22,842 bases of DNA from a virus, in IMG/VR virus record IMGVR_UViG_3300050821_001080, positions 1 through 22,842 of that record. One strand, written 5' to 3'. Of this stretch, positions 11 through 12,063 are shown in pieces; the first letter of the stretch is position 1; the number at the start of each line of letters is the position of its first letter. The translations under genes and the position numbers were made by a program. The notes beneath the pieces are model-generated. The model saw nothing but the letters and a program-made list of their open reading frames with translations. It had not been told where the DNA came from and made no database searches.

Positions 11-745
11 ATGAGTGCTCAAGCACCGCAGCAAGACCCTTATGCCGGTTCTAACGCTAGTATACAAAATCAAAAAAATATGCAAAGTTTAATGAATCTT
101 AAAGATCCTAATGCTATTGGAGCTTCACAAAAAGCTGATCTAGATATGAAGCAGAAGCAATTAGATCAGCAAGGAAAGCTTGGACAAGAAGCTCAAGACA
201 CTAAAGCTGCACAAGAAAAGTTAAATCAACAGAAGAGCGATCAGATTCATGCTCAAAAGATAGCTGAATTAGAAGCTAAGCAAACTGAATCTAAGAATAA
301 GCTAGATTTAGCTACTCAAGGGTTAGCTGATAAAACTAAGAGTGCCGCTGACCAATTAGCTCTCCATAAAACTATCATGGATAATACTAAAGCATATCAT
401 GATGCTGAGATGTCTAAACAAGACTTGAAATTTCAGAAATCTCAGAGTGATCATAAAGATCAAATGGATGTAATGCAGAAGAAGCTAGATGCTGCTAATA
501 AGTCAGTTAAGACTACATTGAGTCCAGATGGAACAAGTAAGACTGTTCAGACAACTACTGGAAGTTCGGGAAAGACTGTCCAAGTTACTGGAAAAGATAA
601 TAAACCATATGAAATTCCAGCAGAGAAATTGGATGAATGGAATGCTCAACATGCTCCAGATAAAACTCCACCTCCTGCATTAGCTGGGCCGCAAGCTGGT
701 AGTGATGACGAAGAAGAAGATGATAGTAGTGAGAACGGCCAATGA
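11..745 (+). CDS. Lys/Gln-rich coiled-coil protein, probable late or virion-associated protein
   Basis: I do not recognise a family. The 244-residue product is almost entirely hydrophilic. Residues 1-30 are Gln/Asn-rich, and about 35-170 are dominated by K, Q, E, D and A in a spacing that suggests long helices or coiled coil. About 165-200 are Ser/Thr/Gly/Lys-rich, and the tail from 215 is Pro-rich and ends in a run of Asp/Glu/Ser. There is no signal peptide or membrane segment. The reading frame stays open to the left edge, so the ATG at 11 is probable but the gene could begin outside the window, and no ribosome site can be judged. Its stop overlaps the start of the deoxyhypusine-synthase-like gene by 4 nt (ATGA), so the two are likely co-translated. 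A scaffold or internal virion role is inference from composition and neighbours only. Confidence 0.75.
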   Translation: MSAQAPQQDPYAGSNASIQNQKNMQSLMNLKDPNAIGASQKADLDMKQKQLDQQGKLGQEAQDTKAAQEKLNQQKSDQIHAQKIAELEAKQTESKNKLDLATQGLADKTKSAADQLALHKTIMDNTKAYHDAEMSKQDLKFQKSQSDHKDQMDVMQKKLDAANKSVKTTLSPDGTSKTVQTTTGSSGKTVQVTGKDNKPYEIPAEKLDEWNAQHAPDKTPPPALAGPQAGSDDEEEDDSSENGQ

Positions 746-1737
746 TGCCAAGAGATATGAAACAGCCAAAGGAGGTTAAACTATCTGGAAATACGGCTAA
801 ATTCGTTAGGGAGAATTTTCATCATTATAGTGCTCAAAGTTTAAAGAATGCTACTATGGCATATCAACATCTACTTGATTCTGGTGGAAAGATGTTTGTA
901 TCAATGGCTGGTGCGATGTCAACTGGAAGACTAGGAATTTCATTAGCTAAGATGATAAGAAGAGGATATGTTTCTGGTCTTTCTGTAACTGGAGCAAACC
1001 TTGAGGAAGATGTTTTTAACCTCGTGGCACATGATGAATACGTTCAAATTCCAAGCTATAAAGATTTAACTCCAGATCAGGATGAGCAGTTAGCTAAAAA
1101 GAAACTCAATAGAGTAACAGATGCCGCTATACCGGCTACTGCAATGAAAGAAGTAGAAGATATTATCATTGAGGACTGGAAGAATTCAGATGAAAGAAGA
1201 TTTCCACACGAGTTTCTGACTGAAATTCTATTGTCTGGAAAGCTCAAAAAATACTATCAGATTGATGAAGTCGAAAGTTGGCTATTGGCAGCGGCCGAAA
1301 AAGACATTCCAATCGTAACTCCGGGCTGGGAAGACTCGACTCTAGGCAACGTCTTTACGGCTCTAGTTAGAGAAGGTGAAGTTGATTTATCAATATTAAA
1401 AACTGGAATAGAAGCTATGAATTATTTGGCTGATTGGTATCTGAAAACTAAAGAGGATAAAGGATTTTTTCAGGTTGGCGGTGGAATTGCAGGTGACTTT
1501 GCTATCTGTGTAGTTCCCTTTTTACGACAGGATTGCCATTTAGGGGATAAAATTAAACATTGGGCTTATTTCTGTCAATGTACTAATGCTATTGTTGAAG
1601 AAGGTGGATATAGTGGTGCTGAACCGAATGAGAAAATAACGTGGGATAAGATAAGCAAGAAAACTCCATCATTTGTAGTTAAAGGTGATGCTTCAATTAA
1701 TGTTCCATTAATATTCGCTCAGATTCTAGGTCTTTAG
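742..1737 (+). CDS. deoxyhypusine synthase family protein (bacterial DHS-like type)
   Basis: Deoxyhypusine synthases use NAD and spermidine to move a 4-aminobutyl group to a lysine of eIF5A; related enzymes make homospermidine. Bacteria lack eIF5A, and their DHS-like enzymes are thought to act in polyamine metabolism or on unknown targets. The 331-residue product aligns from memory over its whole length with bacterial members. Visible are MAGAMSTGRLGISLAKMIRR (55-74), VTGANLEEDVFNLVAH (82-97), LNRVTD (122-127), PHEF (155-158), AAAEKDIPIVTPGWEDSTLG (183-202), GGGIAGDFAICVVP (246-259) and SGAEPNEKITWDKI (291-304). Lys303 matches the catalytic lysine (human Lys329); Glu297 and Trp301 match other active-site residues. 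Tyr290 stands where the eukaryotic enzyme has Asp316, as I recall for bacterial members. No inactivating change is visible. The start overlaps the preceding stop (ATGA); a second ATG follows at 745. Family is near certain; substrate is unknown. Confidence 0.93.
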   Translation: MMPRDMKQPKEVKLSGNTAKFVRENFHHYSAQSLKNATMAYQHLLDSGGKMFVSMAGAMSTGRLGISLAKMIRRGYVSGLSVTGANLEEDVFNLVAHDEYVQIPSYKDLTPDQDEQLAKKKLNRVTDAAIPATAMKEVEDIIIEDWKNSDERRFPHEFLTEILLSGKLKKYYQIDEVESWLLAAAEKDIPIVTPGWEDSTLGNVFTALVREGEVDLSILKTGIEAMNYLADWYLKTKEDKGFFQVGGGIAGDFAICVVPFLRQDCHLGDKIKHWAYFCQCTNAIVEEGGYSGAEPNEKITWDKISKKTPSFVVKGDASINVPLIFAQILGL

Positions 1738-1739
1738 TA

Positions 1740-4700
1740 ATGCCTCCTTTTAGACAACCTGCTAGTCAGGAAGATGATGATTCTTGGACTCCACCGGATT
1801 ATGCTAAACCTGTGAGTGATTCATCTGATAATTGGAAACCTCCAGACTATGCTAAGGCTGTAAAAGAAGAGCCTAAAGGAAGTGAATTTAAAGCTAGAGC
1901 ATCTAAAGCTCTAGGAGAGTTTGTAAGTGATGTAAAATCTATTCCTCATTCATTAAATGAAGGTGTTAAAGGAGTTGTTTCTAAGGCATTAGACACTCCT
2001 ATAATTGGAAGAATTCTAAAAAGTCAAGATCCTGGCTCCGAATCAGTGTTGCCAAGATCTGAGAGTCTAACAAAAGAGCCAGAAACATATTGGGGTGGAT
2101 TTGCTAAAGGTTTATATGAGAATTGGGCTAGACCGTTAGCTAGTGCCACTGGAGTTGCTGGTTTATTATCTGGTGGAGAAGGAGAATCACTAGAGAAAAC
2201 TCCAGAAAGACCATTGGCCGTTCGTAGCCCTAGACCGTTGGATTATGTAAATAAGAGTGGTGAGAAATCAGCTATTAAACAGCCTGTATCTACGCCACAA
2301 AGTAATTTAGCTGAATATATGAAGAAGAATCCAGATGCTAAGATGGCTGATGTTGAAGAGTTTATTAAGAGCACACAAGTAGCTAAGACTCCCGCTAAAC
2401 AAGTTCCAGTTACTAGAATTACAGATAAAGGATTAGGTTTTAGTAGTGATAAAGAAAATACATGGGCTGTTCATGGTCATCTAGATGATGTAGAGGCAGC
2501 TAAGTTAAATGATATGTATAAGTCTGGTAAAGGAGATATTCATAGAGGATATATACCTGAATCAGATGTGGATCTGAGTAAAAATATGTCTGACGAGTTT
2601 GGTAATACCATTATTAATCCTAAATCAACAGCTAAATTTACTCCTCTTGCAGAAGCTGAATTGCCTAAAGGACTAGAAGAATATGATAAGAAACAGGGAA
2701 TGGCTCAGCCGTTGAGTGATGAAGAATTAACTAAGACTAAACCTCCAGTAGCTAAACAGAAGACATTCAATCCATTCGATAAGGTCAAAACGGCCGAAGC
2801 ATCACCTGAATTTGAAACAAAACCTGTTGAAGAGTCACAAGTTAGACAGCCAACTGCTAGATTTGCTCACTATGATCCTTTACTTGAAGCTAATCAATAT
2901 AATATTGAAGGTGGAGAACTTGATAGGAGTACTAAAGGACAGAAATTCATAGATGATAATAATATTCCTATTTCTGAGGGTCCAAGTAATAAACCTCGTG
3001 TTTTGCCGAATAAATTAGATGAATTAAGAGCTAAGGCTTCTGAAAAATCAGGCGAAGCCTGGAAGCCTCCTGATTACTTTAAGCCTGAAGAGAGAACTAG
3101 TGAAGAAGAATTAACTAAAGGATTTGGTGGTTCTGGACATCCTGAATCACCTGATTATGTTTCTAAAGTCTTAAGTGATGCTGGTAAAGGAGATGCTGGA
3201 TTAAAGATAGAAGATAAAGAAGGATTTAAGCATATAGTCTATAGAAATCAGAGCGGTGAGCCCATTGCGGCCGCTAAGATAGTTACTGGGCCTGATGGGA
3301 AGAATATGATACAGGATATCGCTGCTGATAAATCTAAAGGATTATTGACTGGAAGAGCAATGAAAGCTATTGGAGATAAACTTAATGAATTAGGAGCTAC
3401 TGAATCATCTGGAACTACAAGTAGTGACGCACAGAATTTCTTAGCTAAAATGAAAGATAGAATGTCTAAAGCTGCTGATATAAAAGTTGAATCTCCTGAA
3501 CCTGTTGGAATTGGAGCTAGAATAAAAGGATTTTTGAAGGATGAAGAAGGAAGTGCTAGACTTCCTGATGAAGAAGATGATATTACTGATTTACATGGAG
3601 GATTGGGAGCTATCGGCAGTCAAGCAAATAAACAACCATCAACAGGGCCGCACGCAGCTGTGCTGGATAAGTTGTTTAACAGTTTAGAAGAGTCTAAAGG
3701 ACTAACAGATGTTCAGAGTCAGATGTATAAGAAAGAAAGAGCTAAGAGATTTGCTGCATATTCTGATCAATCTATTAGTGGTGGTGGAGTATCAGGGGCC
3801 GCTAAGAGACTATCAACGCTTAAAGGACAATATGAGAAAATAGAGCCTCTATATGGTAAATTGCAATTAGATGAAAAAGAAACTGCCTCTCTATTTGATG
3901 CCGTTGATAAGGCTAATATTAGCACTCCTGAAAAAGCTAGAGGAACAGTTGCATTATTCAAATTGATGAATGGAGAATCTGTCCCGCAAAGAAATGAGTT
4001 AGCTCTACTAGATGAGGTTTTCGGTAATGGATTTGCTTCTAGAATTACCGAAATGCATGGAGGTTTAGGAGCTACTGGAATTAAGATAGCTAAGGCTGCT
4101 AATACTATGAAGTCAATGGAGAATGCTGTGAGCTTAGCGGCTCCTTTGCGTCATGGAGCCGGTTTGATGTATAGAAAAGAATTCACTCCAGCTTTTGCAG
4201 ACATGTTTAGGTTTTTTGGGAATAAAGAGTATTATAATGCTGCTATGGATGCTCTAGAAAAGCGTCCTGACTATCTATTAGGAAGAGAATCTGGATTATT
4301 CTTTGCTAAACAGGGAAGTATGCTTGATTCTGAGGAACAATTCTTAAATAGTTATGTCGGTGATCTTCCTAAACTTACAGGAATCCCGCAGACCGTAGCG
4401 GCCTCTCAAAGAGGATATGTTGGATTTCTTAATAAATTAAGATCAGATGTATTTGATGGTATGCTGAAAACTATGAAGAGTTTAGGAAATGAAACTCATA
4501 CTATGGTTGGAGATCAAATGGTTCCGTCTAAAGGAGTAGAAGCTATAGCTAAATTTATTAACAACGCTACAGGGAGAGGTGAATTACTTGGGAATATGAA
4601 TAAATTAACTAATGAGCTTAATATATTCTTATGGAGTCCTAGGATGATTAGCTCTCGAATCAATATGTTGGCCAATCCTAAAATCTACATGGATCTACCT

Positions 4701-5288
4701 AAAGGAATGAGGCTTGAAGGTCTTAAAAGTCTATTAGGAATAGCATCTATGAGTTTAGTAGTTAATGGATTGGGAATTTTAGGCGGGGCAACAGTAGGAA
4801 CTAATATATTAAGTACTGATTTTATGAAGAGCCGTTTTAAAGGTGGAAAAGTAATAGATCCGAACGCAGGAGTTCAACAATACATTGTTGCTGCTGCAAG
4901 ATTTCTAGCTGGAAAGACAGATTCTAAAACTCCAACTTCTCGATTGGAGATAGCAGGAAGGTTTTTAGCTAACAAGGAAAGTCCTCTAGTTTCATTAGCT
5001 CATACACTATTGACAGCTAAAAAATTCACTGGTAAATCAGATGATCCTGCGACAGCAGGAAATTTTACAACTCAATATGGAGAAAAGACTTCAATACAGA
5101 GTGAGATTGGTAAAAGATTTACACCAATTTTTATCCAAGATATAAAAGATCTAATAAAGAATGATCCAGACTTCTCAGATAATATCGGTCTTAATACAGC
5201 AATGGCCGGAGCTAGCCTAGCAGGAATGGAACAACAATACTCAGAAAGGAAGCCAAAGTCTGGACTAGGCTCCTTGCGGCTTCGTTAA
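1740..5288 (+). CDS. large virion-associated (LPD38-like) polyvalent protein
   Basis: The product has 1182 residues. About 1-600 are low-complexity, charged and Pro-rich, with short repeats W[TK]PPDY[AF]K at 16-23, 32-39 and 441-448. A segment near 480-570 (GEPIAAAKIV, then GLLTGRAMKAIGDKLNELGA) resembles a GNAT-like fold, seen only by pattern. HGGLGAxG occurs twice (near 618 and 774). About 770-1180 are better ordered. There the order NELNIFLWSPRMISSRIN, a hydrophobic GIASMSLVVNGLGILGG segment, then FKGGKVIDPNAGVQQYI matches the C-terminal region of large phage proteins known as LPD38-type or internal/injected proteins (family knowledge, from memory). The start follows the preceding TAG by 2 nt. 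A role inside the capsid or tail and in injection is inference. The stop codon interlocks with that of the converging minus-strand gene. Confidence 0.85.
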   Translation: MPPFRQPASQEDDDSWTPPDYAKPVSDSSDNWKPPDYAKAVKEEPKGSEFKARASKALGEFVSDVKSIPHSLNEGVKGVVSKALDTPIIGRILKSQDPGSESVLPRSESLTKEPETYWGGFAKGLYENWARPLASATGVAGLLSGGEGESLEKTPERPLAVRSPRPLDYVNKSGEKSAIKQPVSTPQSNLAEYMKKNPDAKMADVEEFIKSTQVAKTPAKQVPVTRITDKGLGFSSDKENTWAVHGHLDDVEAAKLNDMYKSGKGDIHRGYIPESDVDLSKNMSDEFGNTIINPKSTAKFTPLAEAELPKGLEEYDKKQGMAQPLSDEELTKTKPPVAKQKTFNPFDKVKTAEASPEFETKPVEESQVRQPTARFAHYDPLLEANQYNIEGGELDRSTKGQKFIDDNNIPISEGPSNKPRVLPNKLDELRAKASEKSGEAWKPPDYFKPEERTSEEELTKGFGGSGHPESPDYVSKVLSDAGKGDAGLKIEDKEGFKHIVYRNQSGEPIAAAKIVTGPDGKNMIQDIAADKSKGLLTGRAMKAIGDKLNELGATESSGTTSSDAQNFLAKMKDRMSKAADIKVESPEPVGIGARIKGFLKDEEGSARLPDEEDDITDLHGGLGAIGSQANKQPSTGPHAAVLDKLFNSLEESKGLTDVQSQMYKKERAKRFAAYSDQSISGGGVSGAAKRLSTLKGQYEKIEPLYGKLQLDEKETASLFDAVDKANISTPEKARGTVALFKLMNGESVPQRNELALLDEVFGNGFASRITEMHGGLGATGIKIAKAANTMKSMENAVSLAAPLRHGAGLMYRKEFTPAFADMFRFFGNKEYYNAAMDALEKRPDYLLGRESGLFFAKQGSMLDSEEQFLNSYVGDLPKLTGIPQTVAASQRGYVGFLNKLRSDVFDGMLKTMKSLGNETHTMVGDQMVPSKGVEAIAKFINNATGRGELLGNMNKLTNELNIFLWSPRMISSRINMLANPKIYMDLPKGMRLEGLKSLLGIASMSLVVNGLGILGGATVGTNILSTDFMKSRFKGGKVIDPNAGVQQYIVAAARFLAGKTDSKTPTSRLEIAGRFLANKESPLVSLAHTLLTAKKFTGKSDDPATAGNFTTQYGEKTSIQSEIGKRFTPIFIQDIKDLIKNDPDFSDNIGLNTAMAGASLAGMEQQYSERKPKSGLGSLRLR
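1785..1856 (+). repeat. tandem W[TK]PPDYAK peptide-coding repeat
   Basis: Two copies of an 8-residue motif (codons starting at 1785 and 1833) lie 16 residues apart, and a third copy with F for A starts at 3060. The codons differ between copies (CCACCG versus CCTCCA for Pro-Pro), so the peptide rather than the DNA is conserved. It may be a docking motif for a partner protein. Confidence 0.7.
5246..5275 (+). terminator. hairpin near the convergent gene ends, weak terminator candidate
   Basis: AAGG, a bulged A, then AGCC (5246-5254) can pair with GGCTCCTT (5268-5275) around a 13-nt loop. It lies inside the 3' end of the + strand gene, just before the converging stops. There is no U-run on either strand, so intrinsic termination is doubtful; it is the only hairpin I see at this junction. 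Confidence 0.2.
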
Positions 5289-8783: not shown

Positions 8784-8887
8784 TTATTTATCTTCATACT
8801 ACACGAAAGATGAATATAATTACCTTTACTATCAGTTGTAACTGATTGATGATTAGTTATTTCTTTTTTGCAAATGTTACAAATCAT
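8780..8887 (-). CDS. 35-residue mini zinc-ribbon protein
   Basis: The product starts MICNICKKEITNHQ and carries CxxC at residues 3-6, His14 and His26, and Cys29, a plausible single zinc site. It is held by ATGA overlaps on both sides: its ATG overlaps the polymerase stop, and its stop overlaps the next ATG. These overlaps are the chief evidence that it is translated. Function is unknown. Confidence 0.65.
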   Translation of the reverse strand: MICNICKKEITNHQSVTTDSKGNYIHLSCSMKINK

Positions 8888-11352
8888 AATTGAACCTTCT
8901 CAAACTCAGCGTAGCTGGTTCTCGAAATTTCAACTTCACAAGGAATCACTAACCTTATGTCACGTTTGAGAGTGCAATATGTTGAGAAATCTATCGGGGT
9001 CTCCATGTACTTCTTCATGAGTTTAGCATAAGGCAACCAGTTATTAGCTGGCGCTTGCAATGTCAGACTATCATGCTTCTCTTCACTCCATAACACTCCA
9101 GTATCTCCATTTAGTTCTTCATCTATCTTCAGAGCGGCTCCTTGTACCAGATGAGCCACAGTTCTTTGAGGAATGTTTGCATAGGCTTCACCATATAGTG
9201 AATCATCCATTCTTCCATTAAATATACGAACACCACCCATAGGGTCAATAAGAACCCTGGATGAATCGATCGCATCTTTGATATCTGCATGGTATTTCCC
9301 CCTAACTTTTGGAGATGCTGCATGAAATAAATCTAACATTTGATTAGCTCTCCACTCTGATATGTCCATAGGAATTTCATATTTCTGTGCGTCCGTATTG
9401 AATGTTATCATGAATGTATGCTTCTTCATGTCGTAATTAGATGCGTGACGTGTTTTCTTGCCTGTAAATCTTTCTGGACCGTCTTTAGGTAAGTCATCTA
9501 CTATTAAAACATGCTCTGTCGAGAGTATTAATTTCTGTGTATATCCGAAGATCAAACCGGCCGTTCGTCTATGCACATCTATCTTATCAAAGGCTTCTAA
9601 TAGCTCCCAGTCTTCTGATAAAACAGCAACTATTCTCGCTTCGGCTTGTGAAGCATCAACTTGGATAATAACTTTATTCTCATCGGCGATGAACATACTT
9701 TTGATATCTTTACCAAGGCGTCCATGTGCCGATATAGTGTGATCTGCGAGTCCGATTTTTTTAGGACGTAAAGGCTTTTTAAGAATTCCAGTAGACGATC
9801 TGCAAGTTTCAGTCGCTGAGATATTGTAAGCCGATTTGCAGCGTCCGTCGTAATCAGGTGAGAAAGAGATCTGTCTAGATTTTTGATCTCTAATTCGTCT
9901 TTCTTCGAGCACATTGTTTAATATCTCTTTCTGTTCCTTTTTCTTACAGGAACTCATTAAAGAGATTATTGTATCTTCTGATGTTGGATTTCTCTTTCTA
10001 ACCTTGAATTTCATAGTTTTGTATAACAAGTCGAACATCTGTGGATATGACTTCACGTTAATATCATCACCCAGCTTCGCTGTAATTTTATCATGCACTT
10101 CATTCTGCATCTGAGTGTATTTAGTCTTTAATTCTTTCTGACGAGCAACATCAACTCTCTTACCTGTAGTTTGCAGCTTTAAATAGAATTTATGTTTCTT
10201 CATCATGTAGTTGTAATAATAGTCTCGAAGAGGCACTGAGAATCGAGCACTCAAATCATCTAAATCTTGCTCTTGTGCTTCATCTACTTCGAATTCGACA
10301 GCGCAGTCTCTAGCATTGTACGTAAGTAATTTATCAATTTTGCTTTTTCCAAGTTTAAATTCTTTACCGTCATCTTTGTAATAGGGCTCTCTAGTCCATA
10401 AACTGCTAACCACGCACAGTCGTTTATCTGGAAGTTCCGGAAAGATAACTCTAGTTTTAAGTAATGTGTCTGAGTAGACTTTTGGGCATTCGTAGCCGAT
10501 AAGGTTAAGCTTATATTCGTCATACATGAAATTGTGTCCCACGATATTGATTCTTCTGAGTTGTTCATCAATCATTCTCCAACATTCATCAAGTTCGTTG
10601 TCACCCATATCAGTAAGATTGTTAGTCCCAATACGGCGAAGTAAGGGTATAGAAATAGCATGTTGTTTATTAAAAGCGAAGCCGACACACACAGGAACAC
10701 AATTAATAGACTCAATGTCAACAGCCGCTTTGTCCAATTTCTCATATTGCCTGAAGAATCTATGAAGATCAAGACTATTGTGAGCTATTTGTAGCTCTCT
10801 TTCTGGCAAATTCAGAGCGGCCGTTCGTGACTCTTCTGCTGCTCTTTGCACATCTGCTTGTATTACCTTATTCCATACCCAACTTAATCCTCCTTTATTT
10901 CCTTCATCATCTGTGTGTGAGAATAGAGCTGCTGGATGAATAGTACTGACTACTTTAGTATGCCCATCGTTTGCAGTAAGAATTGAACCACGGTAGTTAA
11001 GAATGCCACTAACCCCACAAGTAGCATTAAGAGCAAGATCTCCAACGGCCAATATGACGTTCGGATGAAGTTTGTTAATTTCATTTTCCCAGAGCTCTTT
11101 AATGGATTGTTCAATGTCGACTCCGATTAAATGAAGTTTCTTTAAGTCATTCATTGGCGGACGATATTTGATCACATTTGTTATGTAGCAATCAGATCTT
11201 TTCACTCCAGCCTTAAATAGATAATCATTAAGCATTCCTCCTGTTGGTCCTACGAACGGCGTAGATTGTTCATCCTCATGCTTTCCTGGAGCTTCCCCGA
11301 TTATCATTAATTTTGGTTCTACACTGCCAGTACCCGGAACATAGTTGGGCAT
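8884..11352 (-). CDS. uracil-DNA glycosylase / 3'-5' exonuclease / family A DNA polymerase fusion
   Basis: The product has 822 residues in three domains. Residues 1-165 are a UDG-superfamily (family 4-like) domain: GEAPGKHEDE (19-28), GPTGGML (35-41), TNVIKYRPP (58-66), IHPA (138-141). Family 4 enzymes carry Cys before RPP for an iron-sulfur cluster; here it is Tyr64, and the N-terminal cysteine pair is absent. Residues 185-360 are a DnaQ-like exonuclease with Asp212/Glu214, Asn274/Asp278 and YNARD ending at Asp349, so proofreading looks intact. Residues 370-822 are the polymerase: motif A VDASQAEARI (565-574), motif B GKKTRHASNY (631-640), motif C HDS (760-762). In motif B the O-helix lysine is His636, and the residue equal to E. 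coli Phe762 is Tyr640. The fusion probably replicates the phage genome. Its ATG overlaps the upstream stop by one base. Confidence 0.93.
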   Translation of the reverse strand: MPNYVPGTGSVEPKLMIIGEAPGKHEDEQSTPFVGPTGGMLNDYLFKAGVKRSDCYITNVIKYRPPMNDLKKLHLIGVDIEQSIKELWENEINKLHPNVILAVGDLALNATCGVSGILNYRGSILTANDGHTKVVSTIHPAALFSHTDDEGNKGGLSWVWNKVIQADVQRAAEESRTAALNLPERELQIAHNSLDLHRFFRQYEKLDKAAVDIESINCVPVCVGFAFNKQHAISIPLLRRIGTNNLTDMGDNELDECWRMIDEQLRRINIVGHNFMYDEYKLNLIGYECPKVYSDTLLKTRVIFPELPDKRLCVVSSLWTREPYYKDDGKEFKLGKSKIDKLLTYNARDCAVEFEVDEAQEQDLDDLSARFSVPLRDYYYNYMMKKHKFYLKLQTTGKRVDVARQKELKTKYTQMQNEVHDKITAKLGDDINVKSYPQMFDLLYKTMKFKVRKRNPTSEDTIISLMSSCKKKEQKEILNNVLEERRIRDQKSRQISFSPDYDGRCKSAYNISATETCRSSTGILKKPLRPKKIGLADHTISAHGRLGKDIKSMFIADENKVIIQVDASQAEARIVAVLSEDWELLEAFDKIDVHRRTAGLIFGYTQKLILSTEHVLIVDDLPKDGPERFTGKKTRHASNYDMKKHTFMITFNTDAQKYEIPMDISEWRANQMLDLFHAASPKVRGKYHADIKDAIDSSRVLIDPMGGVRIFNGRMDDSLYGEAYANIPQRTVAHLVQGAALKIDEELNGDTGVLWSEEKHDSLTLQAPANNWLPYAKLMKKYMETPIDFSTYCTLKRDIRLVIPCEVEISRTSYAEFEKVQL

Positions 11353-11962: not shown

Positions 11963-11970
11963 AAAAGAAA

Positions 11971-12054
11971 TTCTGGGAGAGGGAATCGAACCCTCACGTT
12001 GTTTCCAACACAAGATTTTAAGTCTTGAGCGTCTACCATTTCCGCCATCCCAGA
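11971..12054 (-). tRNA. tRNA-Leu (anticodon UAA)
   Basis: The transcript is 84 nt. The acceptor arm TCTGGGA pairs perfectly with TCCCAGA (7 bp), and A is the discriminator base. The D arm has GGCGGAAATGGTAGACGC, the anticodon stem CAAGA/TCTTG holds loop CTTAAAA (anticodon TAA), a long class II variable arm (GTTGGAAACAAC) follows, and the T arm is GAGGG-TTCGATT-CCCTC. All of this fits bacterial tRNA-Leu. CCA is not encoded. It lies inside the replication operon, 8 bp before the HTH gene. Confidence 0.97.
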
Positions 12055-12063
12055 ATTTTTAGA

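Follow-up and report, generated by a model that had tools for sequence, protein, structure and literature searches.

The window, by which we mean the whole 22,842-base stretch of DNA that was analysed (IMG/VR record G000), encodes a member of the DS (PF01916) superfamily, as established by profile, fold and catalytic residues. With a probability of roughly two in three, the product is an active bacterial-type polyamine synthase resembling deoxyhypusine synthase (DHS), which would derive from bacteria, be carried as an optional cistron of a soil phage's late operon and have a predicted homospermidine-type product.

An intact enzyme of the DHS family

The gene of this SpeY-like enzyme lies at 742..1737 on the plus strand as an intact open reading frame of 331 codons that starts with ATG and stops with TAG. 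The sequence-only reading had described a full-length DHS-family protein of 331 residues, and this description stands: in the Pfam profile search, PF01916 (DS) matched with 141.7 bits (E 3.8e-41, cut-off 27), with residues 29-327 covering profile positions 11-287/288. A structure model, proposed at that stage as a check, has the DHS fold. The AlphaFold (AF2) monomer model (pLDDT 89.8, pTM 0.89) resembles human DHS with a Z of about 27 and an rmsd of 3.0 A over 289 residues, and 49 of the 50 PDB entries among the matches listed for it are DHS (Z 21-28). The active-site loop (residues 281-300) has a pLDDT of 65-69, which would plausibly fit a loop of the dimer interface in a monomer model. Eukaryotic and archaeal DHS (1dhs, 8put, 7cmc) share the fold (Z about 27), the catalytic lysine, Trp and Glu and the NAD motifs with the window enzyme, but their identity to it is 15-23%, and D243, H288 and D316 are not conserved.

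Every NCBIfam equivalog cut-off is missed by far, which counts against a homospermidine-type reading: the window enzyme scored 88.3 bits with the deoxyhypusine synthase model TIGR00321 (cut-off 304), 108.6 bits with the homospermidine biosynthesis protein model NF001980 (cut-off 450) and 77 bits, below its homospermidine-model score, with the CdmS-type model NF002699 (cut-off 500).

Active-site and NAD-site residues

The active-site segment GGYSGAEPNEKITWDK (residues 288-303; 1603..1650, plus strand) contains Tyr290, Glu297, Trp301 and Lys303, all four of which are invariant in an alignment of 43 homologs. Lys303, which had been named as the active-site lysine from the letters alone, indeed aligns (TWDK303) with Lys329 (WGK329) of human DHS 7a6s, and Trp301 and Glu297 line up with human Trp327 and Glu323. 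The NAD-site motifs TGANLEEDVF, WEDST, GGG, SGAEPNE and GDAS are all found in the window enzyme and are mostly invariant or nearly so among the 43 homologs; the stretch TGANLEEDVFN (residues 83-93; 988..1020, plus strand) is fully invariant. Alignment to human DHS also placed WEDSTLGN (residues 196-203; 1327..1350, plus strand), in which Asp198 corresponds to human Asp238, and GGGIAGD (residues 246-252; 1477..1497, plus strand), where the human His288 region is not conserved.

The earlier claim that both NAD- and spermidine-site motifs are present is therefore borne out for the NAD motifs only, since three positions that we take to bind spermidine in human DHS differ: Asp243 is replaced by Asn203, Asp316 by Tyr290 and the HH motif bearing His288 by 'GDF'. 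Judged from the alignment, the spermidine site is only partly of the eukaryotic type. The same three changes are common to the bacterial DHS-like clade and thus mark the bacterial branch rather than decay. That Tyr290 in place of the eukaryotic Asp indicates this branch, as first supposed, agrees with its alignment to Asp316 and with the nesting of the protein in the bacterial clade of the tree.

Selection, substitutions and bacterial origin

Lineage A, comprising the window and contigs L002-L011 (11 contigs), allowed selection on the gene to be assessed. With dS near saturation, dN/dS was about 0.05-0.12 for most pairs with finite dS and 0.24 for the window and L011; the gene is under strong purifying selection. 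The window enzyme differs at 29 of the 132 columns conserved in 80 bacterial homologs, and these 29 columns do not include Lys303, Trp301, Glu297 or the GANLEED motif. Could the protein have an altered or lost catalysis and act instead in structure or regulation, such as by sequestering NAD or polyamine? Three substitutions of the window sub-clade near the active site (D282N, S286E and S315G, beside the loop) alter columns that are constant in bacteria and point in this direction, but none of the core catalytic and NAD residues varies and the gene is strongly selected, which makes a loss of catalysis hard to credit. The three substitutions may tune the substrate of what we consider an active enzyme.

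In the tree, the window protein is nested in a clade of bacterial DHS-like homologs from many phyla (51-56% identity), within which the window lineage forms a supported clade (99). The bacterial clade includes Bdellovibrionota, Acidobacteriota, Bacteroidota, Verrucomicrobiota and others and appears to be uncharacterised; the members tested scored 105-114 bits against the 450-bit cut-off of NF001980 and passed no equivalog cut-off, and no characterised enzyme of the window's exact clade was found. Acquisition from bacteria is the best explanation of this topology. An 86-row tree suggests that lineage A and a second viral lineage, B, acquired the gene independently, but a single clade of viral copies is not rejected by the AU test (p 0.59), and the viral copies may go back to one acquisition or to several.

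An optional cistron of a phage late operon

The placement of the window in a tailed phage, made in the sequence-only reading, holds through its homologous contigs: related lineage-A contigs carry the genes for TerL (phrog_979) and the major head protein (phrog_14242) upstream on the same strand. Because TerL pieces lie at both of its ends, we read record G005 (48.9 kb) as a genome that is circularly permuted and nearly complete. The minus-strand half of the window encodes a family A DNA polymerase with a UDG domain, a primase-like DUF3987 protein, a Sak4-like protein, a PD-(D/E)XK exonuclease and an SNF2-type helicase (Pfam/PHROG). The polymerase (8884-11352, minus strand; 822 aa) has its uracil-DNA glycosylase superfamily domain fused at the N-terminus, and even the closest polymerases of named phages share only about 27% identity with it. 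A tRNA-Leu with a TAA anticodon (11970-12055, minus strand) also lies in this early/replication half.

The DHS gene is preceded by cistron c1 (11..745, plus strand), which encodes a coiled-coil-rich protein of 244+ aa with a frame open at the window edge and overlaps it by 4 bp (ATGA). It is followed by the last cistron of the late operon, c8 (1740..5288, plus strand), whose large product of 1182 aa gave a match with neither Pfam nor PHROG. The order c2 - c1 - DHS - c8 is common to the 11 lineage-A contigs, as far as each extends. Most tail-module genes of the lineage get no name from PHROGs; hence c1 and c8 are labelled as late or virion-operon genes by position. The supposed location among probable virion genes thus corresponds to a slot in the late operon.

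A search with the tail-module gene c10 (alignment A2) yielded 34 related contigs. In six of them (L219, L225, L227, L230, L231 and L236), c1 is directly followed by c8 without DHS, with a TAATG stop/start overlap in five and abutting genes in one, and no DS match was found elsewhere on these records, some of which are fragments. DHS-positive contigs hold exactly one cistron of ~1 kb in the slot, with junctions that usually overlap or nearly abut. Mapped on the c10+c11 tree, presence and absence require three changes, at least two of which are forced by well-supported branches. Being present or absent in one precise slot, DHS shows the behaviour of an auxiliary cistron in the late operon. Its neighbours c1 and c8, which occur in relatives without it, are independent of it. 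DHS therefore counts as a phage auxiliary metabolic gene: it lies in a true phage genome, is selected, has a cellular origin and is optional. Because the same operon occurs with and without one cistron, it also offers a clean comparison for testing the need for polyamines.

Another important question is whether a bacterial gene could have reached the window through an assembly or binning artefact, on a contig misfiled as viral. Among the other loci, L012, L013, L016, L204 and the L182 group lack clear hallmark genes, as such an artefact would predict, but in lineage A the slot recurs on 11 contigs, which come from several metagenomes, with TerL and capsid genes on related contigs and a precise empty slot in relatives. 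These observations rule out bacterial contamination for lineage A, and the probability of an artefact is negligible. Chance is excluded by the same gene in the same slot on 11 contigs together with the low dN/dS.

Predicted polyamine synthesis

As we infer its activity, substrate, product and purpose, the enzyme would work as DHS does: putrescine or a related donor would be oxidised by NAD+, Lys303 would carry the aminobutyl group as an imine, and a second putrescine (or agmatine) would finally receive this group, giving homospermidine or a guanidino relative. The putrescine or agmatine would be made by the host, since the lineage-A records hold no further polyamine gene of the kinds sought (PF02675, PF02784 and, in the records other than the window's, PF00491), and a full pathway on the phage is accordingly rejected for lineage A.

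The gene context in bacteria points to the same chemistry. In nine bacterial loci, speA (arginine decarboxylase) lies 21-142 bp from DHS on the same strand, which favours a polyamine role, one of the two hypotheses of the sequence-only reading, as the leading one. In bacterial loci L077 and L079, DHS has agmatinase-type genes no more than 64 bp away, and in the bacterial-looking IMG/VR locus L013 one lies directly upstream, within the same distance. Against the polyamine reading, speA or speB is nearby in only 15 of 80 bacterial loci, many of which have short flanks, and the link to putrescine or agmatine genes is not present in the window's phages. In a different phage record (G594; L193, 1337-3414), whose contig also contains a portal gene and matches a terminase, an arginase/agmatinase-family gene adjoins DHS divergently, and the pair is a possible agmatine-to-homospermidine module. 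In addition, about 20 Bacteroidota loci and L033 (6294-7193) have a conserved gene ~0.8 kb upstream of DHS that, by eye, is presumably histone-deacetylase/acetylpolyamine-amidohydrolase-like.

Two bacterial DHS homologs are characterised polyamine synthases, namely SpeY, which makes homospermidine, and CdmS, which makes caldomycin (PMC9992855, PMC10407285, PMC10981699). Taken with the speA and agmatinase neighbours and G594, they support polyamine synthesis, most likely of homospermidine. SpeY of Anabaena and Ca. Pelagibacter (Burnat 2018, Li 2023) shares with the window enzyme the DHS family, a bacterial setting and the lack of eIF5A, and NAD-dependent lysine chemistry is expected in the window enzyme too. 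Unlike SpeY, the latter is phage-encoded, falls in a different sub-clade (108.6 bits against the 450-bit cut-off) and has a predicted activity.

Could the product be a different polyamine, formed by coupling agmatine as in caldomycin or by using spermidine as the aminobutyl donor, so that the host pool is remodelled and gains no homospermidine? Thermus CdmS (caldomycin synthase), likewise a bacterial DHS homolog and polyamine maker with a conserved lysine, couples agmatine (PMC10981699), several bacteria have the gene adjoining arginine decarboxylase, the maker of agmatine, and SAR11 work calls such enzymes promiscuous (PMC8437039). The window enzyme scores weakly on the CdmS-type model (77 of 500), under its score with the homospermidine model, and we regard a different polyamine as unlikely.

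Virus-encoded routes to homospermidine are known from HSS of Ralstonia phage RSL1, Achromobacter phage Motura and chloroviruses, but HSS is related to carboxyspermidine dehydrogenase and non-homologous to the window enzyme (PMC9992855); if our reading is right, DHS-type genes would be a second route by which phages may make homospermidine. The SpeD-type decarboxylases of marine phages are also polyamine auxiliary metabolic genes but represent a different step and fold, and none was found in the lineage-A records.

The namesake reaction of the DHS family suggests yet another activity, in which a lysine, either in a virion protein or in host EF-P, receives an aminobutyl (deoxyhypusine-like) group. 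The conserved location of DHS among virion-operon genes would suit such protein modification, but six relatives have c1 and c8 and lack the enzyme, bacterial relatives adjoin putrescine-pathway genes, and the human spermidine-site residues D243, H288 and D316 are not conserved. A search of 20 viral records for the EFP_N (eIF5A/EF-P-type) domain found no target on the phage, and to our knowledge bacteria have no eIF5A/aIF5A substrate. Modification of a virion protein, raised in the sequence-only reading, thus gained no positive evidence, and the flanking late-operon genes do without the enzyme. Protein modification is very improbable overall, and its late-infection form, on a virion or host protein lysine, slightly more so; if true, it would be the first case in which a bacterium or phage aminobutylates a protein.

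For the preferred homospermidine-type synthase, the translationally coupled late operon with its overlapping junctions suggests the timing: as the enzyme would be translated with the late genes, its triamine is probably needed late. It would help to neutralise the charge of the packaged DNA, to translate virion proteins, or both. Some phages package polyamines along with their genome, and polyamines are important in phage DNA synthesis, maturation and translation (review PMC7226272), which makes a late role in DNA packing or translation plausible.

Distribution among viruses

The profile search revealed 53 viral DHS loci, whose representatives form about 17 gene-content groups; phage hallmark genes are clear on the same records in 12 of these by our count. 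Lineage B is a T4-type phage group whose TerL is 48% identical to that of Flavobacterium phage immuto. That DHS is unexpected in a tailed phage, as supposed at first, is weakened in part by the 53 uncultivated-phage loci but holds for named phages, as tblastn gave no DHS match in 50,697 named phage records. The window enzyme has no PHROGs match and no BFVD match at E<=0.001. Li et al. 2023, the one study found in the open literature that surveys viral polyamine enzymes systematically, reported that no SpeY homologs were detected in the genomes of viruses or phages and no DHS among virus proteins (PMC9992855), and no later report of viral DHS or SpeY was found in the open literature (subscription papers and most preprints were outside the search). 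The DHS-type genes in dozens of uncultivated phage contigs from many unrelated groups fill this stated gap.

In several unrelated groups, DHS is close to portal, tail, capsid, virion or lysis genes. It directly follows the portal gene in L175, is flanked in L206 by genes for a tail protein and an endolysin, and adjoins a virion structural protein gene in L169 (a relative of which is about 2 kb from DHS in L015). In L014, L027 and L168, the major head protein gene lies about 2 kb downstream of it. Such repeated closeness to virion genes points to a polyamine need late in infection.

Several loci show further features. In lineage C, DHS is preceded at a distance of about 1.7 kb by the gene of a SPASM/radical SAM protein (L027:7451-8275). 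L184 is a jumbo-sized IMG/VR contig (record G588, 464,605 bases) with a DHS-family gene, and in L174, its gene-content relative, a metallophosphoesterase-type gene (phrog_1649) adjoins DHS. On the record of L206, the terminase frame (G597:C1:33909-35084) contains two in-frame TGA codons, and this phage may be recoded to read TGA.
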